From positions 1 to 64,000 of the forward strand of contig NZ_PEBU01000010.1 in NCBI RefSeq assembly GCF_002887595.1: 64,000 bases of DNA. The letters run 5' to 3'. Below the pieces are notes generated by a model, which saw nothing but the letters and a program-made list of their open reading frames with translations, made no database searches and had not been told where the DNA came from. Within the stretch, counting starts at the first letter, position 1; each line of letters opens with the position of its first letter. Below, one piece after another: positions 8,871 to 20,180 of this stretch. Source of the stretch: Bowmanella denitrificans (GTDB lineage Bacteria > Pseudomonadota > Gammaproteobacteria > Enterobacterales > Alteromonadaceae). Made by a program: the position numbers and the translations under genes.

Positions 8871-9347
8871 TTAAGCGAGCCTGACTTCCGGTTGGGCCGT
8901 TTGCAACGCCTTTGCCCCTGCCTGCAACAAATAAAAGTCCGGTTCTTCCGCACTTACGCAGAAGCCAGCATTTACATAAAATTGCAGAGCTTGCTGATTA
9001 CAACGAAACACCCTGAGTGTTAACTCTTGAGCCTGATAGACCTTAAGCAATTGCAATAGCAACCTACGTCCAATTCCCTTATTGCGCCATTGTGGTGCCA
9101 TAATCAGCATCGTAATATATAGGCCATGCTTTGGACGTTGGCAGAGCTGAATATAACCAAGATTGAGGTGGCCAGATACCACCAATAGATTTTGATTATC
9201 CTGCCAGCGCTTAGCAAAATCCTGACGCTGCCAGTTCTCATCCCATCCCCACTGACTTTCAATATGTCCACGCATGGCCTGCTGATAATGCCGCCAGAAG
9301 TAACTTTTATCCTCATTGCCCGCTTGGGCCAGACGAAGATTTATCAC
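8871..9347 (-). CDS. GNAT family N-acetyltransferase
   Basis: Protein of 158 residues with the GNAT core: the strand YITMLIMAPQWRNKGIGRRLLLQLL carries the acetyl-CoA pyrophosphate loop, followed by LRVFRCNQQALQFYVNAGF. The substrate cannot be inferred. It starts with GTG at 9347, and the GTGA overlap with the end of the nfeD-like gene indicates translational coupling with the NfeD-QmcA pair. It converges on metJ with an 8-base gap. Confidence 0.85.
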   Translation of the reverse strand: MINLRLAQAGNEDKSYFWRHYQQAMRGHIESQWGWDENWQRQDFAKRWQDNQNLLVVSGHLNLGYIQLCQRPKHGLYITMLIMAPQWRNKGIGRRLLLQLLKVYQAQELTLRVFRCNQQALQFYVNAGFCVSAEEPDFYLLQAGAKALQTAQPEVRLA

Positions 9348-9808
9348 GACACGTCCTGCACAGGTGCTACATCCAAACGCCCTACCGACACTTTAACCAC
9401 CTGCACCGTCTGCCCAGCTGTTAAATGTTGCTGACTGTGTACCTGCCAAGCAATACCTGAATAACGATACTCAAAACTCTTACCTGGCTGCAGTGCCTCG
9501 GTAACTGCAAACTGATGCCCGATCAGATCACTTTGTACCTGTACCGGTTTTCCTTTCGCCTGCATATTTTTTAGCGGCTTCCACAACAACAACGCAAACA
9601 AGGCACTCAACACGGCGAGGCTGGCCAGAGCGCTGAACATATCCTGCCCAAGCAAGCCAAGATACATCATCAGCCCGGTGGCCAGCGCTGCCAGGCCAAT
9701 AAAGAACAATACAAAGGTGGCAAAGCCCAGGATCAGTACTTCAACGGCCAGCAGTGCCAGGCCTAACACCATCAGACTCTCGGCCAGATGCTGATTCAGT
9801 AGGTCCAT
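9344..9808 (-). CDS. NfeD-like membrane protein
   Basis: Protein of 154 residues. Three or four hydrophobic segments fill roughly residues 8-75, then a C-terminal small beta-barrel of OB type (SDLIGHQFAVTEAL ... HLTAGQTVQVVKVSVGRLDV). NfeD proteins of this short class are encoded next to SPFH proteins and are thought to work with them in membrane microdomains or quality control. Here the gene follows the stomatin-like gene by three bases, with AAGGGG at the right distance before the ATG. Confidence 0.9.
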   Translation of the reverse strand: MDLLNQHLAESLMVLGLALLAVEVLILGFATFVLFFIGLAALATGLMMYLGLLGQDMFSALASLAVLSALFALLLWKPLKNMQAKGKPVQVQSDLIGHQFAVTEALQPGKSFEYRYSGIAWQVHSQQHLTAGQTVQVVKVSVGRLDVAPVQDVS

Positions 9809-9811
9809 CGG

Positions 9812-10747
9812 TTACCCCTTTTTTATATTCTCGATAATGGTCATGGCCTGCGCTACCATTGACGCGGCATCAGTCCCACTGTCTGGTAGCAACACCACTG
9901 AAGACTCTTTAGCAATGGCTTGTTTGGCTTCAATGGCCTTAGTGGCCAGATCCAGTTGAATCGCCTTCTGGCCTTGTTCTGTGTTGGCCGCTTCGCCCAC
10001 CAGTCGCAATGCTTCGGCCTGCGCCTCTGCCACCGCCAGAATAGCTTTGGCTTCACCCTCAGCGCGCAGCACCTGCTCTGCTTTGTCCGCTTCGGCGGCC
10101 AGTACCACTGAAGCTTTTTCACCCTCGGCACGGTTAATAGCCGCTTGCCTGTCACCTTCAGATTCCAGGATCTGTGCCCTTTTGACTCGTTCCGCCTTCA
10201 TTTGCGCTTCCATAGCTTCCATAACCGAATGCGGTGGCACAATGTCTTTAATTTCATAGCGCATCACCTGGATGCCCCAGGGGCCAGAGGCTTCGTTTAT
10301 GGCGGATACGATATTAGTGTTAAGTTGATCACGCTCTTCAAAGGTTTTATCCAGTTCCATTTTACCCAGCTCTGAACGCATAGTGGTTTGCGCCAACTGA
10401 GTCACGGCAAAGATATAATCATCCACCCCATAGGTGGCCTTGTATGGATCCAGCACCCGGAAATACAGCACCCCATCCACCTTAAGAGAGATGTTGTCAC
10501 GGGTAATAGCGCTTTGTTCCGGCACATCCACGGCCTGCTCTTTCAGCGAGCGGTCGGCGGCAATCCGGTCAATAAAAGGTACGATAAAATTCAGTCCGGC
10601 TTCGCGGGTGGTCTGGTATTTACCAAATCGCTCAATCAGATAAGCGCGATTCTGAGGGACAAAGATAATGGCGGATTTTAATACCACCACCACAAAAATC
10701 AGTAGAAAGGTCTCAATACGTAAAATGTAGTCAAACAGTATGTCCAT
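9812..10747 (-). CDS. qmcA: SPFH/stomatin-like membrane protein (QmcA)
   Basis: Protein of 311 residues with one N-terminal membrane segment (LLIFVVVVLKSAIIFVP), an SPFH domain (PQNRAYLIERFGKY ... SLKEQAVDVPEQSAITRDN) and a long Ala/Glu-rich coiled coil (about residues 185-270). It resembles E. coli QmcA (YbbK), which forms large oligomers linked to FtsH. The ATG at 10747 has GGAG six bases upstream and is preferred over the in-frame ATG at 10759. First gene of a probable qmcA-nfeD-GNAT operon. Confidence 0.93.
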   Translation of the reverse strand: MDILFDYILRIETFLLIFVVVVLKSAIIFVPQNRAYLIERFGKYQTTREAGLNFIVPFIDRIAADRSLKEQAVDVPEQSAITRDNISLKVDGVLYFRVLDPYKATYGVDDYIFAVTQLAQTTMRSELGKMELDKTFEERDQLNTNIVSAINEASGPWGIQVMRYEIKDIVPPHSVMEAMEAQMKAERVKRAQILESEGDRQAAINRAEGEKASVVLAAEADKAEQVLRAEGEAKAILAVAEAQAEALRLVGEAANTEQGQKAIQLDLATKAIEAKQAIAKESSVVLLPDSGTDAASMVAQAMTIIENIKKG

Positions 10748-10839
10748 ATTTTTCTCCAATGACGTTCCACTAAATTCCGCCTAACATAGTTCAGTGCCAG
10801 AGCACTGACAATGACTAATTTCAATCAGGAAGCATCATC

Positions 10840-11790: not shown

Positions 11791-14700
11791 TCAGAGCGAA
11801 AGTCTCAGCTGTGGCCGGGGCGGTCGCCCTTGCCACAGCATGCCCGCCACCATTAATAACAACATCGCCAAGCAGGACCAGATCAGGGTCCAGTTCCAGT
11901 CGATTGGCTGCTCGCTGGCCTGCACTTTTTCCAGCTTCTGGCCTTGTACCGCTTCTGATAGTGAGGCTTCCAACGGCATCGGCGCCGCCAATTGCTTAAT
12001 CAGACCAAAGCCACTGGCTGACTGATTCACAAAGTCTCTGAGCTTGTCATTGTCCTGATACAGCTCATACTGGTTCACCAGGTCGATATAGCGCTCAACC
12101 AGGGTTTGCAGAGTGTGTGCATCCGCCTCCCAGTAATCTTTGCGATTCGCTTCCAGCATCCGTTCCAGCATACGAGCCAGGGCAGCAGGATTCGTTTGTT
12201 CGAACCACTTATCCAACTCCAGATCCAGCTTGTCGTTGACATAGACGTCGAAATACTCCTGCCATTGATCATCGCGAATAATATCCGGGTCCACTACCTG
12301 CCAGCCCCAGAAATTGTCCATACGCGAACTCATCCCCACTGCACCTGAGTAGCCTTCTTTTTGCATCTCCTGGATCCAGCGCTTGTGAAATACCCGGGTG
12401 CGCAGCTCCTTGGCCAGAAACTGATCGGCTTTCTCGGTTTTGGCGCTGCTGGCATTACGTAAGTTGCTGATGCGCATCTGTGGGCTTTTGCCGTCAATAT
12501 TGCGCACCGCCAGCGACAGTGAACCGAAATATTCAAAGGGATCATCGCTGGATAACATGCCAAACAGATTGGATGAGCGGGCAAACAGCGCCACGTCGGT
12601 ACCGGACAGTTGCTGTGCATACAGGTTAATGCCGTCCAGCTTTTCCCCCCAACGTTTGTCATCAGGGCCAAAGAAATAACCCATCTTATCCAGGTAAAGA
12701 TCGGCAATTTTACTGTCCTGCTCCCAGCTATCGCTGGCCCAGGCGGCGCCATCCACGCCCGAGCCGTAATCGCCGGAGGCATTGGAAAACAATCGCATGG
12801 TCGACAAGTACTCGGCTTCGTCCGGGGCCACACCTTGCTCCACCAGCTGTTTGGCAATACGTTGGCTGTTGGCCCAGATACTGTTGCCCTGTTCCTGCAG
12901 TTCAGCCACTTGCTGTACTGCCTTGGCCAGCAATTGCATCACATTAGGAAAAGCATCACGGTAAAGGCCGGTCGCAGACAGAACCACATCCACTCTGGGC
13001 CGTTTCAATTCGCTGTAGGGGATAACTTCGGTGCCGGTCACCCGCCCATCCGGCGTCCAGGTAGGTCGTACCCCCATGGCATACAAGGCCTGGCTTTCCA
13101 GCACACCGTAGTGGCGCATGGTTTCAATACTCCACAAAGAAAACGCCAGTTTATCCGGATATCGGCCATGCTCCTGAAAGTAATCGGCAATCAATTCCCC
13201 GGTCAGTGCCTTACCCTGCTCCCAGGCTGCCTGGGTGGGTACCCTGGCCGGATCAAAGCCCTGCAGATTGAATCCTGTGGGCACAGACTCGGGATGGCGT
13301 ATCGGGTCGCCGCCGGTTTTAACCGGCACATAACGGCCCTGTAAAAAACCGATCAGATTGTCCAGCTCGGCGATATCCTGCATGGCCTGATACTGTTCTC
13401 GGGCTTTTAGCAATTGGCTTTGTAGCGCATCGTCCAGCTTCTCAAAGGCGATCGGTAGGGGCACTGACTTACTGCCATCCTGGGCTACCACATAGTCATA
13501 CATCAGCTTAAACCCAGGGGTGTTCTCCAGCGCTACCTCATCGGTCATGGCCTGATTATCCCCATCATGCACATCCTGATGGGCCTGATAGTGCTTACGC
13601 TCAAAAGCCAATGCCTGTTGAATAAAGTCCTGCCCCTGCATCTGTACCAGGGTAGTGGTCAGCAGGGCTTGTTCAGGCAACATACCAAAGCTGTGTAAAC
13701 CAAGCGGCTGATTGGTGCCGGCGATTTCCTCCAAATGCTCATGCAAGGCCTGAATAAATCCATCAAAATCAGATTTGATCTGTGGGTCACTCCAGCCAAA
13801 GTCGGCACAGATATTTTCTTCAATACAACGCTGATGGATTTGCTCGCCGGTGCGCTGCTTCACTCCGCCTTCGTCCAGCGAGTCATACTGATGCATCAGT
13901 TCATGTATATCCGCCATCACCCCTTGCAAACCAGCAGTGGCAAAAGGCGCGGTCATATGCGAGATGACCGTGGCGCGGCCACGACGCTTGGTCTGCATCG
14001 CTTCGCCCACATCATCGACAATAAAGGGGTAGACTACCGGGGTATCCCAAACTGCCAGGTTGCCCTGGTCAAAGATGGACAAACCGCGTTCCTTGCCGCC
14101 TAAATATTCCTGCGAGCCATGGGTGCCCAAATGAATAATGGCGTCGCTATGCCAGTATTCCCGGGCATAGTAATAGGCCGCCAGATAGAAATGGTTAATT
14201 GGCACCGTGCCCACATGATAGATATCGCTTTCATTATCCTTTTTGTCCGAACGTGGCGGCTGACGCATAATCAACAAATTACCGTTACGAATGCGCGGCA
14301 GGACAAAATAATCCACCCCATCACGCTTGACCGCCATAAAGTTATCCTGAGGTTTTCCCCAGTGTGCATTAATAGGCTCGGTGACCGATTGGGGTAATTG
14401 ATTAAACCAGCTCAGATAATCTTGCACCGGCATCAACTCGGCCAGATCCTGCTGCAGAAGTTCATCCAGTTGGTAATCGCGATAAAAGGGGTCAAGGATA
14501 TGATTAACCCGCTGCGTGTAATAATCCCCACTATGTGGCGCTACCTGATAACCTTCCTGATGCAAACGTTTACCAATGTGATACAGGCTGTCAGGAATAT
14601 TCAAAAATGACGCCCCAACATCCTGGCTACCCCACATAAACAAGGTCAGTCGTTTGTCGGCGTTAGCTTTATGCCGCAGGTTCGCCAGCTTAATTGCTTT

Positions 14701-15786
14701 GCTGGTCAGGCGTTCAAGCTGATAGTCAATGGCTTCTACCCGGCCGGTTTGCTGGTTAAGTGCCGCCACTATCATGGGGTCCACAACTCCGGCGCCTTCC
14801 GGCAAAACCAGGGTAAAAGGTGTCATACCAATGCTGATCCCCTGCTTGTCCTGCTCCCAGGTCTGCTGGTCACCGTCGTAGTAGGTCAGTGCCTGCATCA
14901 CAGGTACGCCAAGCGCTTCAAATTCGGCTTTGCGTTTGGCGGCCCAATGAAAATTGCGGAAACTGACGATCAGGTCCACATAAGTTTGCCCATCTTTGCT
15001 GATAAGCGGACGATAGTCAGACACCACCGGACTTAGCTCAAAGAAAAACGGTACCGCCACCGCCCCTTGCTGTTCCAACTGACGAATGGCCCTATCCACC
15101 ACCTGGGTTTGCGCAGTTTCAATTAATGAGCGTTGCAGCAAGATACCCACTCTGGGGGCACCTTCAGAAGGTTTTCGCCAGCTCAGAAAACTGTCCAGAT
15201 CTGCGAAGATTCGCTTGCTGAAATCCGGGTGATACAGGCCAATCTCCGGGTAAATCAATGGCGCTTCAACGACTGTGTCAGTGGGGCTAAGCAACCGATG
15301 TTGCAGGTATTGGCCCATACGCTGAAGATTTTGTGTGCCGCCATTATCCCAATAGGCAAACAAATCCATAGCCTGCTGCGGATCAATACCTTTACGCAGG
15401 CTATCCACTTGCGGTTGCTGAATAGTGATAAAGCGGCTGTTGCTCTGCGTTATCAGTGCCTGATACTTGGCATACGTTGCCGCAGACTCCCTGGCTGAGA
15501 CCGCATCAAACAGCACCAGGTCAACTTCGTCAAATAACCCCTTAGCGGCAGACATGTCGTCTTTAATCGCCGACTCGGCTTTGTGCTCAATATCCAGCGT
15601 TTCTCCCGCCAGTTCTTTAAACAGACTGACCTTGGCTTTGTTGCTATGAGCAGCGCCCAGAATCAGTACCTTAGGTTTGGCTTGTGTGACTGATTGCTGG
15701 GCCAGAGAAGGCATGCTGAATGTACTCAGCAGCAGGCCCCATACTATTAACGTCTTCTTGCTGATATTTATGTGCCTACCTGACAT
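11791..15786 (-). CDS. hmuS: CobN-like chelatase-family protein, HmuS type, exported and membrane-anchored
   Basis: Very large protein of 1331 residues. The body matches the CobN/magnesium-chelatase H-subunit family, for example IIHLGTHGSQEYLGGKERGLS near residue 590 and DVVLSATGLYRDAFPNVMQLL. Unlike cobalamin CobN, it has a signal peptide (about residues 10-29, ending SLAQ) and one C-terminal membrane helix before a basic tail, so the catalytic part should face the periplasm. HmuS of Bacteroidetes, encoded with HmuYR, is a CobN homolog reported to remove iron from heme. The gene context here (HmuY-like lipoprotein, TonB receptor, ExbB-like and DUF2149 proteins) supports the same role. The ATG overlaps the DUF2149 stop (TAATG). 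No cobST or other B12 genes are nearby. Direction of metal chemistry is inferred. Confidence 0.85.
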   Translation of the reverse strand: MSGRHINISKKTLIVWGLLLSTFSMPSLAQQSVTQAKPKVLILGAAHSNKAKVSLFKELAGETLDIEHKAESAIKDDMSAAKGLFDEVDLVLFDAVSARESAATYAKYQALITQSNSRFITIQQPQVDSLRKGIDPQQAMDLFAYWDNGGTQNLQRMGQYLQHRLLSPTDTVVEAPLIYPEIGLYHPDFSKRIFADLDSFLSWRKPSEGAPRVGILLQRSLIETAQTQVVDRAIRQLEQQGAVAVPFFFELSPVVSDYRPLISKDGQTYVDLIVSFRNFHWAAKRKAEFEALGVPVMQALTYYDGDQQTWEQDKQGISIGMTPFTLVLPEGAGVVDPMIVAALNQQTGRVEAIDYQLERLTSKAIKLANLRHKANADKRLTLFMWGSQDVGASFLNIPDSLYHIGKRLHQEGYQVAPHSGDYYTQRVNHILDPFYRDYQLDELLQQDLAELMPVQDYLSWFNQLPQSVTEPINAHWGKPQDNFMAVKRDGVDYFVLPRIRNGNLLIMRQPPRSDKKDNESDIYHVGTVPINHFYLAAYYYAREYWHSDAIIHLGTHGSQEYLGGKERGLSIFDQGNLAVWDTPVVYPFIVDDVGEAMQTKRRGRATVISHMTAPFATAGLQGVMADIHELMHQYDSLDEGGVKQRTGEQIHQRCIEENICADFGWSDPQIKSDFDGFIQALHEHLEEIAGTNQPLGLHSFGMLPEQALLTTTLVQMQGQDFIQQALAFERKHYQAHQDVHDGDNQAMTDEVALENTPGFKLMYDYVVAQDGSKSVPLPIAFEKLDDALQSQLLKAREQYQAMQDIAELDNLIGFLQGRYVPVKTGGDPIRHPESVPTGFNLQGFDPARVPTQAAWEQGKALTGELIADYFQEHGRYPDKLAFSLWSIETMRHYGVLESQALYAMGVRPTWTPDGRVTGTEVIPYSELKRPRVDVVLSATGLYRDAFPNVMQLLAKAVQQVAELQEQGNSIWANSQRIAKQLVEQGVAPDEAEYLSTMRLFSNASGDYGSGVDGAAWASDSWEQDSKIADLYLDKMGYFFGPDDKRWGEKLDGINLYAQQLSGTDVALFARSSNLFGMLSSDDPFEYFGSLSLAVRNIDGKSPQMRISNLRNASSAKTEKADQFLAKELRTRVFHKRWIQEMQKEGYSGAVGMSSRMDNFWGWQVVDPDIIRDDQWQEYFDVYVNDKLDLELDKWFEQTNPAALARMLERMLEANRKDYWEADAHTLQTLVERYIDLVNQYELYQDNDKLRDFVNQSASGFGLIKQLAAPMPLEASLSEAVQGQKLEKVQASEQPIDWNWTLIWSCLAMLLLMVAGMLWQGRPPRPQLRLSL

Positions 15787-16106
15787 TATGGCTGCCCCTG
15801 AGTTTCTGGCACATAAACAATACTGCCATCGGCCATGCGATAGGCCACCCCGGCCTTCACCCCATCACCGGCACCAATTTCGCCAGAGCTTTGATAGGTT
15901 TCTATGCTTTCGCCGTTTTTTATGATCATCTGCATATCCGGCTGCCCGGCATTTTTAATCACCGTGACGTTTTCATCCAAAAAGGGATTAAGTGGATTTT
16001 GGGCGATGGCAATCAGCAATGCGGCAATCAGGATCAGAAATACATCCACCAGATTGACCACCGACAGCACCGGATTACCGGCTTCATCTTCATCAAGCAG
16101 CCGCAT
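15786..16106 (-). CDS. hmuV: DUF2149 protein, ExbD-like accessory of hmu operon
   Basis: Protein of 106 residues with a single N-terminal membrane helix bearing the DUF2149 signature (NPVLSVVNLVDVFLILIAA, then IAQNPLNPF) and a small soluble C-terminal domain probably in the periplasm. The topology is like ExbD/TolR, the partners of ExbB/TolQ proton channels. In Bacteroidetes hmu loci a DUF2149 protein is encoded beside the CobN-like gene. A perfect AAGGAGGT precedes the ATG, inside the end of the ExbB-like gene (14-base overlap). The gene symbol is by analogy of context. Confidence 0.82.
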   Translation of the reverse strand: MRLLDEDEAGNPVLSVVNLVDVFLILIAALLIAIAQNPLNPFLDENVTVIKNAGQPDMQMIIKNGESIETYQSSGEIGAGDGVKAGVAYRMADGSIVYVPETQGQP

Positions 16107-16677
16107 CGTGCTCTACCTCCTTGCGAATGGCAGTATCATAAACGGACTGTTCCCGGATAAAGGGGGCCAGGGCTACCAACTCAGAAGCCAGCCAGCGTTT
16201 TCTGACGCTGGCAATCCAGAAGGTAATGGATGCCGTCACCAGGCCAAAAATCACCGCTGAAAAGGCCACAATCAGATTTTCGCTGATACCCTGAATATTG
16301 CCGTTGGCCAGACTTTTCAGCGCCGGCCCCATAGGAACCATGGTCGCAACCAGGCCCAGCATCGGTGCCAGGCGGCTGACCATTCTGGCATTTTCCAACA
16401 GGTTAAAGGCCGCCACATCCAGTTCATCGCGGCTGACTTGCGGCTGTGCCAGTCGCAAACATAAAAGCGGATAGCCAGGCAATGGGCCGGATGTGTTCAG
16501 GTTGTTTTGCAACGCATTGATATAGCCCATGCGCTGACGCCGACGCTGTTGCCATTGCATCAGCAATGCCCCCAGGGCAAACAGGCTGTAAGCAAATAAT
16601 AAAATCAGTAATACCAGTACCGGCGCCATAAACAGATCGGACAGCTGGTACATCAGTTCTTCTAATTGTTTGATCAA
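16093..16677 (-). CDS. hmuU: MotA/TolQ/ExbB-type proton channel protein of hmu operon
   Basis: Protein of 194 residues with three membrane helices: about residues 17-40, then the pair around MLGLVATMVPMGPALKSLANG and LIVAFSAVIFGLVTASITFWI, which carries the family's Gly/Thr-rich signature. It should form a channel with the DUF2149 protein and energise TonB-like work for heme transfer or the CobN-like enzyme. It starts with TTG at 16677, eight bases after GGAG. A hairpin lies between it and the upstream HmuY-like gene. The symbol follows Bacteroidetes hmu nomenclature and is tentative. Confidence 0.82.
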   Translation of the reverse strand: MIKQLEELMYQLSDLFMAPVLVLLILLFAYSLFALGALLMQWQQRRRQRMGYINALQNNLNTSGPLPGYPLLCLRLAQPQVSRDELDVAAFNLLENARMVSRLAPMLGLVATMVPMGPALKSLANGNIQGISENLIVAFSAVIFGLVTASITFWIASVRKRWLASELVALAPFIREQSVYDTAIRKEVEHDAAA

Positions 16678-16703
16678 GGTGTTATCTCCGGGTCAATCAA
16701 TAG

Positions 16704-16731
16704 CAAAAGGGAGTGACAATTCACTCCCCTT
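16704..16731 (-). terminator. intra-operon hairpin between hmuY and hmuU
   Basis: On the minus strand GGGAGTG, loop AATTGT, CACTCCC is followed by TTTT. It lies in the 85-base gap after the HmuY-like gene. It could terminate part of the transcripts or protect the upstream mRNA, giving more receptor and lipoprotein than downstream enzyme. Confidence 0.65.
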
Positions 16732-16762
16732 GATGACAATCGGGCTTCCTGCCCCGTCGCGA

Positions 16763-17893
16763 TTATTCGTTCAGGCTGTCGGCGCGGAAACTATAGTGGC
16801 CCGAAGCACCGGCCTCGTCGTAATAGCTGGTGACCTGAAACTTATAAGTGGCCGTGCCGGTGCGAATCAGATACACCCCATATTGCGACCACAGCTTATG
16901 GCCGCCTTGCAGGTTGTATTGATACCAACTGTTGTCGTCGAAGAAGCGCAGCATGGTTTGGTTAGACTGAAAGCCCATATAAGGCACAGCTTCTTCGTCA
17001 ATGCCCGGGTAACCTTCGGCGCTGTCTTCAATAGCACTGGCGTCGTCGGCAATATGCAGTTCAAAAGCACCACCCGTGGTGCCTGACACAGTGTTGCAGG
17101 GTATGCGCAAATCCCAGTTGTCGGTTTCAGACATCACCTGAGCCAGGTCAAAGTCGATATAGACATCGTCCGTGCAGGCACTGGTATCCACTTCAAGATC
17201 CACTTCAGGGCGGAATGCCGTATCACCATCGGCGGGGCTTTGGTGGGCGATTCCCAGTGTCAGGGTAGCCATAGTGCGACCAGCGGTGGTGATGTGCTTG
17301 GCGCGGATTTTGCTGAAGGCTTGGTCTGACTGGACAATAAAAAACTTATCGTCCGCAGCGGTAACGGTGTGGGTGGCCATATCGTAATGGTAGAACTTGC
17401 CGCCAATCACTAACTCTTCACTGTCACTGACAAAGGCGTCATCAGCGGGAATGTCAGTAGTGGCAATCGCCTTGTATTTGTCCAGCTCAGTTTCAGGCGT
17501 GGCATTGATAAATTTATCTGTTACGGCGTTGCCTTGAGCATCAAAGAAGTCGCTGTTGATGTCGGTTTTAAACACACTGACCGGTGTCTCGGCCTGATGA
17601 TTGGTCCACATTTTGGTGCGTTTAAAGGCAATATCCCAATCCTGATTGGTCAGCGCTTGCTCCTCTGTCAGTGGCAGTACTTCACCACTGTCCAAATCAA
17701 AGAACACCGCAACAGGCGCGGCCGTCGTGCCGGTGCTGAATGGACCTTTGATCAGGCCCTGTTCTGGGGTTGGTTCCGGGGTTGGCTCAGGGGTTGGATT
17801 CGGGGTCGGCGTGGGCGCGCTTGAGTCAGAACCGCCACAACCGGCCAGCGCCAGGCACAGCGCCATGGCAGTAACAGACAGAGAAAACTTCAT
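16763..17893 (-). CDS. hmuY: HmuY-like heme-binding lipoprotein
   Basis: Lipoprotein of 376 residues with lipobox LAGC (Cys19), then a Pro-Thr-Glu repeat linker (NPTPEPTPEPTPE) and a beta-rich body with the HmuY family look, e.g. NQDWDIAFKRTKMWTNHQ and TATYKFQVTSYYDEAG. HmuY proteins capture heme at the cell surface and pass it to the TonB receptor HmuR. It is longer than the Porphyromonas protein, and the middle seems to hold a duplicated or inserted segment. The heme-ligand residues cannot be assigned by eye. AGGAG precedes the ATG. It follows the receptor gene by 24 bases. Confidence 0.82.
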   Translation of the reverse strand: MKFSLSVTAMALCLALAGCGGSDSSAPTPTPNPTPEPTPEPTPEQGLIKGPFSTGTTAAPVAVFFDLDSGEVLPLTEEQALTNQDWDIAFKRTKMWTNHQAETPVSVFKTDINSDFFDAQGNAVTDKFINATPETELDKYKAIATTDIPADDAFVSDSEELVIGGKFYHYDMATHTVTAADDKFFIVQSDQAFSKIRAKHITTAGRTMATLTLGIAHQSPADGDTAFRPEVDLEVDTSACTDDVYIDFDLAQVMSETDNWDLRIPCNTVSGTTGGAFELHIADDASAIEDSAEGYPGIDEEAVPYMGFQSNQTMLRFFDDNSWYQYNLQGGHKLWSQYGVYLIRTGTATYKFQVTSYYDEAGASGHYSFRADSLNE

Positions 17894-17917
17894 CGGGTGC
17901 TCCTTGAATTGTTATCT

Positions 17918-19867
17918 TTACAGGAATTGGTAATTAACGCCCAGTGTCAGGCGACGGCTGCTGATTGGACGCACATCAAATAAGCCTGCCGCATCGGCGC
18001 TGGCATCTCTGTGCTCATCAAGCAGATTGTCAACAGCCAGTCGCCAGCTCAGGCTTTGGCTAAGGTGTTGGGATAAACTCAGGTTAAGGCTCAGCCAGTC
18101 ATCCTTAAGAATGCCCTGATAGTCCTGACCTGCTTGTTCGCCAGCCTCGTAGACTGCATAAAACAGGCTATCCAGTTGCCATGCCGGGTAAGACCAGCCA
18201 AGGTTGAATTTAAGCTGGTGTTTGGGGCGGCCCGTCAGTGGCTCGCCTTGTTCGTTTTCGGTGTGCAGGTAAGCGTAACTGAGCTGATAGCGCCAGTTAT
18301 CCAGAGTCAGTTCGGCCGACAGATCCAGCCCGGCGATTGTGGATTCCGCCACATTGGCATAGCGGGACACATCCAGGCCCAGCTCCGCTGACGCCGCCGC
18401 ATCTCTGATAGTGTTAATAAAATCGTCGGTGCGGGTGTAATGGCCGGCTATCTCAAATTGCAGATCATGGCTGTCATCCATAACCGGAATGGTCAGGGTT
18501 AAGCCAGCGTTTGCCGACAGGGCCGTCTCGGGGTTAAGGTTTTCATTACCCAGCACCATGTAGCCAAGGTTACTGTGGTCAAACACATAGAACCTTTCCT
18601 TTAGCGTAGGCACACGATAGCTTTGCCCCAAACCAGCCCGCCATTGCCAGGTGTTCTGTGCAGTATCGATATACTTGTACATGCCACTGGCACGCAGTGC
18701 CGAATGCCAGCCGAAATCCGTATCATGCTGAACCCGCAAGCCGGCCAGCCAGTCCACTTTATCCAGCATCCAGTTAATTTGGCTATAAGCTTCCAGTGAT
18801 TGGCGGTCTTTATCCGCTACCTCCACCAGTCCATCGGTGAGTTTGCTCTGATCCAGGGTATCGCTATGCCAGATAACCCCGCCAACCACCTCCATGCCAT
18901 CCAGCATCCAGACTTTCTGAGCATCCAGCTCGGCCAGGGATATATCGGTTTCGCGCAAGCCATTGGAATCGCCACTGGTTTCATTGTGCTTGATGTAGCG
19001 GCCTTTCAGTTGCCAGTCATGCTGCTGGCTGACCAGTACATCCTGTTGCCACTGCTCCACATCGGACAGATAGTAGACAACCGAGTCCTGGCCGGGGACT
19101 TTAAATCTGTCCTTGAGTTTTTCTTCCTCAAAATAATGAAGCTTGTATCCCAGCCTGAGGCCATCCAGATTACGGGCCAGCTCAAAACGCGCAAAGTGTT
19201 TATCCAGGGAAGCAGATGTCTGTGCAATGCTGGCAGGCTCATAATCAAAGCCAGGATCGTCAATTTTCTGCAGGCTGAGCTTAGCCTGCCACTGTGCCAC
19301 TTTGGCGGAGCCACGCAGTTTGTAGAGATGGCCCAGCGTATCGCCGTCCACCTCATTGCCCAGATAGCGGGACACTTGATACTCACTGCTCAGGCTATTG
19401 CCCTTATCCTGACGGCTAATGATATTGATTACCCCGCCCATGGCGGAACTGCCATACAATACCGAGCCAGCACCTTTGACGATTTCAATCTGTTCAATCT
19501 CGTCGGCACTGATCTGATCCAAATCCACCGAGGAACCAGAGGGTGAGATTAACGGCTGACCGTCCAACAGGATCAACACGTGATCTGAGTCAAAGCCCTG
19601 CATCATGACGTTATAGCCGTCTTTAACGCTGCGTTTTACTACCACCCCAGGCAAAAAGTTCAGGGCCTGGGCTAATGTGCCACGGCTGACTTGCTGCAGT
19701 AGCTCACCACTGACCACATCCACCGCCACTGGTGAATTGTTCAACAATTTAGGGGTGCGGGTACCAGACACAACCAGCCTCTCCACTTGTTGAATCTCGT
19801 TGGCCAACGCATTGGGCACTAAAGTAACGGCAAGTAATGCCAAGATTGGGATTTCGCGATACATCAT
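17918..19867 (-). CDS. hmuR: TonB-dependent heme receptor, HmuR-like
   Basis: Outer-membrane receptor of about 649 residues: signal peptide (ends NALANE), TonB box region, plug domain (NNSPVAVDVVSGELLQQVSR ... VLYGSSAMGGVINII) and a 22-strand barrel ending YQF-L. A heme-receptor signature is recognisable: SYRVPTLKERF, His in VFDHSN, then NENLNPE, corresponding to the FRAP-His-NPNL pattern. An in-frame ATG at 19891 lies inside the Fur box and lacks a Shine-Dalgarno; 19867 puts the start directly at the signal peptide. Neither start has a strong ribosome site. First gene of the five-gene hmu-type operon. Confidence 0.9.
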   Translation of the reverse strand: MMYREIPILALLAVTLVPNALANEIQQVERLVVSGTRTPKLLNNSPVAVDVVSGELLQQVSRGTLAQALNFLPGVVVKRSVKDGYNVMMQGFDSDHVLILLDGQPLISPSGSSVDLDQISADEIEQIEIVKGAGSVLYGSSAMGGVINIISRQDKGNSLSSEYQVSRYLGNEVDGDTLGHLYKLRGSAKVAQWQAKLSLQKIDDPGFDYEPASIAQTSASLDKHFARFELARNLDGLRLGYKLHYFEEEKLKDRFKVPGQDSVVYYLSDVEQWQQDVLVSQQHDWQLKGRYIKHNETSGDSNGLRETDISLAELDAQKVWMLDGMEVVGGVIWHSDTLDQSKLTDGLVEVADKDRQSLEAYSQINWMLDKVDWLAGLRVQHDTDFGWHSALRASGMYKYIDTAQNTWQWRAGLGQSYRVPTLKERFYVFDHSNLGYMVLGNENLNPETALSANAGLTLTIPVMDDSHDLQFEIAGHYTRTDDFINTIRDAAASAELGLDVSRYANVAESTIAGLDLSAELTLDNWRYQLSYAYLHTENEQGEPLTGRPKHQLKFNLGWSYPAWQLDSLFYAVYEAGEQAGQDYQGILKDDWLSLNLSLSQHLSQSLSWRLAVDNLLDEHRDASADAAGLFDVRPISSRRLTLGVNYQFL

Positions 19868-19875
19868 AACACTAC

Positions 19876-19930
19876 TGATAACCGTTATCATTTGTGTTTA
19901 TGATTGTAATCATTTAAATGCTGGGATCAA
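19876..19930 (-). promoter_or_regulatory. Fur-controlled promoter of the hmu operon
   Basis: On the minus strand TTGATC (19930-19925) and TACAAT (19908-19903) form -35 and -10 boxes with a 16-base spacer. Two Fur-like palindromes overlap or follow the -10: ATGATTACAATCAT around 19901-19914, and ATGATAACGGTTATCA at 19876-19891. Both fit the GATAATGATAATC consensus, so repression by Fur with iron is expected. Confidence 0.75.
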
Positions 19931-19983
19931 GGAGTTTCTTGTTCTCTGATCGATGCAGCGTTGATTCAGAATGAATACCTGCA

Positions 19984-20053
19984 GGTGTTAGGTGTTAGGT
20001 GTTAGGTGTTAGGTGTTAGGTGTTAGGTGTTAGGTGTTAGGTGTTAGGTGTTA
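19984..20053. repeat. ten perfect copies of a 7-base tandem repeat
   Basis: GGTGTTA is repeated ten times without a mismatch, ending just before GAAAATG. It lies in the 370-base gap between prmA and the hmu promoter, about 55 bases upstream of the -35 box. Perfect copies imply recent slippage, so copy number probably varies between isolates. It could be neutral or tune the promoter. Confidence 0.95.
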
Positions 20054-20180
20054 GAAAATGATGATATTCAGGCCAGCAGCAGGAAGCGTAGTTTTTATCT
20101 CAGAACACAGGGCGGGAATAAACGATAGGCTTTTAACGACGGCCAACCATGGCGGGCTGGTATAAATGTCGGTTTAGCTA

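Follow-up and report, generated by a model that had tools for sequence, protein, structure and literature searches.

Here, we describe a five-gene operon of Bowmanella denitrificans that we read, with a probability of roughly 0.57, as a Fur-repressed heme-iron acquisition operon in which an exported, CobN-like class I chelatase would remove iron from heme in the periplasm. The operon lies within the window, the whole 64,000-nucleotide stretch analysed (contig NZ_PEBU01000010.1, positions 1 to 64,000), in a genome of 5.48 Mb on 39 contigs. The CobN-like protein likely works as HmuS of Bacteroidota does, while standing in a separate lineage and outside the HmuS family as its authors define it. 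HmuS of Bacteroides thetaiotaomicron is a proven NADH-dependent heme de-chelatase with an inactive H538A variant, and the family definition includes the NADH-dependent conversion of heme to protoporphyrin IX (PPIX) and Fe(II); according to the authors, this work of 2025 in gut Bacteroidota was the first to show directly that an enzyme can de-chelate heme while keeping the porphyrin intact (PMC12583661). A 2023 survey places about 99% of hmu operons in Bacteroidetes, the sole group with complete six-gene operons, and notes relatives of HmuS and HmuV in Proteobacteria (PMC10100974). No hmu-like operon of a gammaproteobacterium was described in the open-access literature searched by title and the start of the abstract. 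An earlier reading of the window from its letters alone (the sequence-only reading) had proposed a route to heme iron other than that of cytoplasmic heme oxygenases or HemS-type proteins; it does differ from these, although for HmuS such de-chelation has already been published.

Five open reading frames (ORFs) run on the minus strand from 19891 down to 11791, with intergenic gaps of 24 and 85 bp and overlaps at the remaining two junctions, and all five proteins score above the cut-offs of their families by hmmscan against Pfam. The genes and the palindromes ahead of them are:

17918 to 19891, minus strand: TonB-dependent receptor, 657 amino acids (aa) from the first ATG (Pfam plug E 1.2e-24, barrel E 3.1e-34)
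16763 to 17893, minus strand: HmuY-like lipoprotein, 376 aa (PF14064, E 2.6e-9), with lipobox Cys19 and two HmuY-type halves
16093 to 16677, minus strand: MotA/TolQ/ExbB-family channel, 194 aa (PF01618, MotA_ExbB, E 4.1e-7)
15786 to 16106, minus strand: DUF2149 protein, 106 aa (PF09919, E 1.9e-28), with one hydrophobic helix
11791 to 15786, minus strand: exported CobN-family (class I chelatase) protein, 1331 aa (PF02514, E 3.6e-295)
19876 to 19890, no strand: Fur-like 7-1-7 palindrome TGATAACCGTTATCA, a perfect palindrome with 12 of 14 consensus positions
19900 to 19913, no strand: second, weaker palindrome ATGATTACAATCAT, 10 of 14 Fur positions in its best register, with no control comparison of its own

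CobN, DUF2149 and HmuY each have one match in the whole genome, all within the operon (profile and six-frame genome search). The Fur-controlled five-gene arrangement of the sequence-only reading was confirmed in its reading frames, order, Pfam families and palindrome, whereas its further claim of a complete operon matching hmuYRSTUV fails: there are five genes, not six, with no counterpart of HmuT among the five (the genome elsewhere was not searched for one). Set beside the hmuYRSTUV operons of B. finegoldii, Prevotella and Aureibacter, the window has counterparts for five of the six genes in the order R-Y-U-V-S, against Y-R-S-T-U-V in these operons and R-Y-S-T-U-V in the case of Aureibacter.

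The CobN-like protein matches PF02514 over model positions 2-1089 of 1090, which places it in the class I chelatase superfamily of CobN, ChlH and HmuS, and its best matches in the PDB are HmuS (9d26, 425 bits), ChlH (370) and CobN (335). Its export, as proposed by the sequence-only reading, is supported by a signal peptide and a C-terminal helix read from sequence and hydropathy. Features of this protein to which we return below are:

15700 to 15786, minus strand: signal peptide MSGRHINISKKTLIVWGLLLSTFSMPSLA, read from the sequence and hydropathy
11833 to 11895 (approximate ends), minus strand: C-terminal transmembrane helix, hydropathy maximum 2.08
11932 to 11949, minus strand: VQGQKL juxtamembrane motif ahead of the C-terminal helix, its positions invariant in seven aligned sequences
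15646 to 15648, minus strand: His47 in the head domain, candidate heme ligand
14947 to 14949, minus strand: His280 in the neck domain (RNFH motif), candidate heme ligand
14119 to 14121, minus strand: His556 in HLGTHG, aligned with His538 of B. thetaiotaomicron HmuS, which is essential there
13807 to 13827, minus strand: Cys654 and Cys660
12541 to 12543, minus strand: Asp1082, aligned at the place of HmuS His1209

At least 551 relatives were present among 595 candidate stretches, of which the best 80 by similarity were kept; together with 15 further regions of relatives and the window they make a comparison set of 96 loci. HmuY stands beside CobN in 24 of these (one Colwellia locus, L039 and L062, being counted twice, and L078 carrying a partial HmuY), in Colwellia, Psychrosphaera, Pseudoalteromonas, Teredinibacter, Catenovulum and Marinagarivorans among others, and also in a Thalassolituus metagenome-assembled genome (MAG) and one Campylobacterota MAG. 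In a quick tree of 107 CobN-family proteins, the window protein falls in a clade of 30 (type 1) with a clade of 34 (type 2) nearby, each with a support of 100 in the Shimodaira-Hasegawa-like approximate likelihood ratio test (SH-aLRT), while ten cytosolic CobN and two BchH proteins lie outside a group of 95 (support 99) that is of the exported type except perhaps for one member. This member, L137 of the cobalamin-linked branch, may not be exported, because it has no clear C-terminal helix and no annotated ExbB or DUF2149 neighbour. A careful tree of 33 sequences gave type 1 a support of 100/100 and left its deepest split weak (68/30); there, Trichlorobacter lovleyi and 18 Pseudomonadota-type sequences (one of them from Campylobacterota) exclude Bacteroidota HmuS with 97/94. 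The approximately unbiased (AU) test rejected a single clade of type 1 and HmuS (p 3.3e-40; 33 sequences, three of them HmuS), for a group that had been picked after the quick tree was seen. These trees put the window protein among exported class I chelatases of a Pseudomonadota lineage, separate from both cytosolic CobN and HmuS; it is not the orthologue of HmuS, to whose operon the sequence-only reading had matched the set. HmuY presence changes at least nine times on the tree (99 sequences, 26 with HmuY, eight with cut neighbourhoods omitted), and HmuY therefore joined or left the CobN enzyme repeatedly. In Catenovulum maritimum (L096, 5666-14233), a receptor-HmuY-ExbB-DUF2149 series is followed by two tandem CobN genes. 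The tree assigns one of them to type 2, and the other is apparently of type 1, since its product is about 55% identical to the window protein.

Numbered by the B. finegoldii HmuS orthologue (2688 bits to 9D26), HmuS His538, Glu577, Asp1208 and Glu1212 are kept in the window protein as His556, Glu595, Asp1081 and Glu1085, and the equivalents of His538 and Glu577 are invariant in all 30 type 1 members; the match at HFG(T/A)HG and Glu577 does not single out HmuS, because both residues are conserved across the superfamily sample. Twelve alignment columns are diagnostic for types 1 and 2 against 43 other sequences, those in the head and neck being His47, Arg277 and His280. His47 is present in 29/30 type 1, 31/34 type 2 and 3/43 other sequences (two of these three being both of the BchH proteins), and His280 in 30/30, 34/34 and 1/43, respectively, which makes the pair a candidate counterpart of the Met79/His254 heme site of HmuS. 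Cys654 and Cys660 occur in all 30 type 1 members and in none of the other six groups compared, a possible disulfide confined to the clade of the window. Among type 1 proteins, 24 of 30 carry the VQGQKL pattern within their final 140 residues, and among type 2 proteins 33 of 34 do. As a class I chelatase that is exported and carries a membrane helix at its C-terminus, the window protein resembles B. thetaiotaomicron HmuS (PDB 9D26), and it is likewise encoded in an iron-regulated operon with HmuY, a TonB receptor, an ExbB-like protein and DUF2149; it differs in its own His and Cys pairs and in an apparently cleaved signal peptide, in place of the N-terminal anchor of HmuS.

The operator points to iron as the regulating signal. 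A Fur score of at least 12/14 is reached ahead of 12 of 23 HmuY-bearing operons against 13 of 821 control upstream regions, and also ahead of 17 operons among 41 that start with ExbB (ExbB-first) and 4 among 14 that start with the receptor and have no HmuY; these counts are not independent events, because the sequences share kinship and one locus (L039 and L062, both from Colwellia sp. DT_20 and both within the 23) is counted twice. The controls were upstream regions of ORFs of other families of at least 220 aa in the same loci, picked mechanically and not all of them true genes. In many loci the tally passed over DUF2149, and of L067 it retained CobN only, which leaves this locus outside the 23. 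The palindrome TGATAACCGTTATCA covers the first ATG of the receptor frame (19891), so that translation more likely starts at one of the in-frame ATGs at 19867 and 19864, and ATGATTACAATCAT may be part of the operator. Control by Zur was rejected, as a Zur score of 13 was reached by none of the 78 operons in the three tallied groups, all 23 HmuY-bearing ones included. Cobalamin control was likewise rejected: an Rfam search of the window matched no family, and no riboswitch was found in the window or in eight HmuY-linked loci scanned.

The two surface proteins suggest heme as the cargo, through the following residues:

18575 to 18577, minus strand: receptor His439 (numbered from the first ATG), between YRVP and NENLNPE
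17369 to 17371, minus strand: His175 of the HmuY-like protein, conserved in 18/18 sequences
16898 to 16900, minus strand: His332 of the HmuY-like protein, conserved in 17/18 sequences

Heme receptors such as ShuA and HemR carry their ligand His in a loop of this YRVP...NENLNPE type. In the receptor alignment, 21 of 22 HmuY-linked receptors have His in the column of His439, against 3 of 50 others; in type 2 receptors a His lies a little before this column within the loop, and the contrast is therefore no proof that they are non-heme receptors. With 37.8 bits by hmmscan, the HmuY-like lipoprotein, whose lipobox Cys19 is read from sequence and hydropathy, clears the PF14064 cut-off of 27; the six-frame genome search, at 22.6 bits, does not reach it. 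Its profile matches Bacteroidota HmuY with a probability of 96.6 over 82 columns at the N-terminus, which take in the signal region. The assignment of the sequence-only reading thus stands with one correction, as the two halves match each other (hhalign probability 78.3, E 1.8e-5) and mark a tandem duplication of HmuY, seemingly found in Aureibacter too (two matched stretches). His175 and His332 occupy equivalent places, one in each half, which suggests that the protein binds heme through them.

We propose that, under iron starvation, the double-HmuY lipoprotein would collect surface heme, with one conserved His per half, and pass it to the TonB receptor, which would import it to the periplasm by the ordinary TonB-ExbB-ExbD of the cell. 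There, the membrane-anchored chelatase would hold heme between head and neck, with His47 and His280 as candidate ligands, before heme moves to the central cleft (His556, Asp1082), where iron would be removed and PPIX left. Cytosolic class I chelatases require an AAA+ ATPase; the ExbB-like/DUF2149 pair would probably take its place here, coupling the proton gradient to the chelatase through the C-terminal helix. Iron removal in the periplasm is plausible because Bacteroidota HmuS does the same (PMC12583661).

Several observations weigh against this reading. The HmuS motif LSLDHxxEFMGG reads LSSDDPFEYFGS in the window, in which the Glu (Glu1085) is kept and His1209 is replaced by Asp1082. Asp stands at this place in 30/30 type 1, 34/34 type 2 and 20/24 other exported proteins, as well as in 4/4 of the cobalamin-linked branch and 10/10 cytosolic CobN, whereas His is found in the porphyrin enzymes HmuS (3/3) and BchH (2/2) and in 4/24 other exported proteins; this speaks for a different second ligand, or a different substrate. 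Met79 and His254 of HmuS are absent, Val96 and Ala283 being found in those columns (Aureibacter HmuS itself has Arg at the Met79 place). The Met-rich insertion of HmuS (domain IV) is also missing: the window segment has 109 aa and 5 Met, with at most 3 per 60 aa, against 151-340 aa and maxima of 5, 6 and 18 Met per 60 aa in three Bacteroidota HmuS, a contrast that is modest in Met density for two of the three and clearer in length. Type 2 operons, which have a divergent receptor facing ExbB-DUF2149-CobN and differ from the window in having no HmuY, another receptor and no Cys pair, carry Fur-like boxes as often (17/41 of the ExbB-first operons) and share His47, His280, ExbB and DUF2149, so that neither the Fur box nor the His pair is specific to the HmuY system. 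The receptor scores 160 bits against a heme model and 144 bits against a B12 receptor model, both far below cut-off, and FeoB was not found over its cut-off in the genome, unlike in Bacteroides. A B. fragilis btuS1 btuS2 double mutant, lacking two CobN-like genes, still releases PPIX (PMC6460266). Finally, the profiles of DUF2149 and ExbD gave no significant match (hhalign probability 1.1, E 0.048, 18 columns), so that homology of DUF2149 to ExbD is not claimed.

Other members of the family vary at the same places. In type 1 domain IV, at the place of the Met-rich insertion, His-rich stretches reach up to 13 His per 40 aa (for example in L121, L064, L069 and L070); as 25 of 30 clade members have at least 5 His per 40 aa and the window has 3, no such insertion is claimed for the window. 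Exported CobN proteins outside Bacteroidota with His at the 1209 place are found in Azospirillum brasilense (L135) and in Methylococcales (L111, L112 and L116), and these are candidates for porphyrin-acting enzymes.

An alternative for one step, compatible with de-chelation, is that the ExbB-like/DUF2149 pair energises TonB and the receptor and not the chelatase, as HmuU/HmuV are modelled to do in Bacteroides (PMC12583661). ExbB-family membership and the nearby receptor agree with this. In DUF2149 itself, the transmembrane motif NLVDVFL looks like the stator motif of ExbD, and the Asp of the two falls in register by hhalign in a weak alignment:

16044 to 16046, minus strand: DUF2149 Asp21, invariant in 42 aligned sequences

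HmuV of P. gingivalis is described as having no homology to any known family (PMC13227078). The genomic distribution argues for a partnership with CobN, however. DUF2149 is matched in 21 and CobN in 41 of 369 genomes of the class of the window. The distance to CobN is at most 1.7 kb for 18 of the 21 DUF2149 genes and at most 4.0 kb for two more (20/21), the single one without CobN being the sole match below cut-off; no DUF2149 was matched in the remaining 21 genomes with CobN. Three receptor-HmuY-CobN loci without ExbB or DUF2149 in cis (L056, L057 and L066) have DUF2149 elsewhere in the genome (3/3). Conversely, exported CobN and an ExbB-like gene stand near cobalamin genes without an adjacent receptor in L043, L044 and L046, where DUF2149 is a weak match (E 8.9e-4) in L046 and a similar short ORF in L043 and L044. 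Methanosarcina acetivorans, one of 14 control genomes and as an archaeon devoid of an outer membrane, has both families (adjacency was not seen). Ordinary sets are also at hand, since an ExbB-ExbD-TonB set adjoins the CobN/ExbB/DUF2149 operon of T. lovleyi and five ordinary ExbD genes lie elsewhere in the genome of the window. TonB energising by the pair is thus unlikely, if still to be reckoned with, and the pair probably serves the chelatase, because DUF2149 follows CobN and relatives occur under cobalamin riboswitches or in a nickel-hydrogenase cluster. The claim of the sequence-only reading that the pair powers the chelatase accordingly holds as far as this indirect linkage reaches, and lacks the support that homology to ExbD would have lent it.

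The chelatase may instead act on another metallo-tetrapyrrole imported by the same route, such as a corrinoid, a Co-, Zn- or Ni-porphyrin or a chlorophyll breakdown product, in favour of which stand Asp1082, as in cobalt enzymes, the close B12-type and heme-type scores of the receptor, and relatives behind cobalamin riboswitches, in a NiFe-hydrogenase maturation cluster of Runella, or under Zur in P. aeruginosa (PA1922-1925; PMC4542158, PMC8531726). The HmuY-like protein, the receptor His and the Fur-like operator of the HmuY-linked group nevertheless indicate heme, and neither a cobalamin riboswitch (window and eight HmuY-linked loci) nor a Zur box at threshold was found, which makes a different substrate quite improbable. 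That the CobN-like protein only holds heme in the periplasm or acts as a regulator, passing intact heme to another system, would fit the missing second axial His of HmuS and the release of PPIX by the B. fragilis mutant (PMC6460266). We give this little credence, given the equivalents of His538 and Glu577 invariant in 30/30 clade members, a genome with no HemS-family match, and purified B. thetaiotaomicron HmuS that is active unless His538 is changed to Ala (PMC12583661). An ordinary cobaltochelatase subunit of cobalamin synthesis, misread from its neighbours, is very hard to credit and was rejected: NCBIfam NF004644 names the protein CobN (1256.3 bits, cut-off 1248), but it has a signal peptide and a C-terminal helix, the trees place it outside the cytosolic CobN clade, no cobalamin gene is among the flanking genes examined, and of the cobST pair whose linkage the sequence-only reading had asked about, no CobS was found in the genome (CobT was not searched).

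Beside the operon, SPFH, NfeD-like and GNAT genes (8871-10759) are found, with SPFH 95-96% identical in two congeners, in which the same three genes flank a type 2 CobN operon (L032, 9215-11096; L033, 3351-5232); one chromosomal site therefore holds different types of CobN operon within the genus. Between prmA and the operon promoter lies a perfect 7-bp tandem repeat, AGGTGTT (19983-20054, 10.3 copies, 100% matches), possibly a phase-variable element or a spacer.

Relatives of the chelatase and its partner pair are found with other metals. Cobalamin riboswitches occur in all four cobalamin-linked loci scanned (L043, L044, L046 and L130) and in none of the eight HmuY-linked loci; like the window, these four have an exported CobN, an ExbB-like gene and DUF2149 (annotated in L130 alone), and they differ in their cobalamin control, the absence of HmuY and their distant CobN branches. 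On the plasmid of T. lovleyi (L130, 4146-12558), two tandem cobalamin riboswitches precede receptor-DUF2162-ExbB-DUF2149-CobN. DUF2162 is a predicted transporter and may occupy the position of HmuT here, although no Pfam family was matched by HmuT of Bacteroidota. On a plasmid of Runella slithyformis (L141, 3119-11153), a receptor, a permease-like gene, ExbB, DUF2149 and an exported CobN lie inside a hyp NiFe-hydrogenase maturation cluster, and the permease-like gene has a weak, below-cut-off match to nickel permeases, suggesting a nickel version. In P. aeruginosa, the PA1922-PA1925 group includes PA1924 and PA1925, which we take to be the ExbB-like and DUF2149 proteins. Its authors annotate these as ExbD and hypothetical, respectively, co-transcribed with a TonB receptor and a CobN-like protein; the likeness to the window is one of gene descriptions, no HmuY is mentioned in the available part of the paper (PMC4542158), and control is by Zur (PMC4542158, PMC8531726, PMC10393844). 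A hmu-like operon of B. fragilis carries a cobalamin riboswitch (PMC10100974).

Tentatively, and with more doubt than confidence, exported CobN, the ExbB-like protein and DUF2149 could be seen as a general, proton-driven metal stripper of the periplasm for imported tetrapyrrole-like chelates, whose partners set the metal. Its heme version would then have been put together independently in Bacteroidota and in Pseudomonadota, each with heme-site residues of its own. If so, iron would be served by Fur and HmuY as here, cobalt by cobalamin riboswitches, nickel by the hydrogenase cluster and zinc by Zur, and the proton gradient would do the work of the AAA+ ATPases of cytosolic class I chelatases. 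The possible proton-driven partner pair is the most interesting point of the operon, and with DUF2149 linked to CobN, the question of whether a motor driven by protons could stand in for the ATPase of a class I chelatase becomes directly testable. If the Fur-repressed heme-iron reading is correct, the operon would be a second, separately assembled de-chelation system in marine Gammaproteobacteria, which would extend this chemistry beyond anaerobic guts and offer an independent set of residues for testing heme de-chelation.

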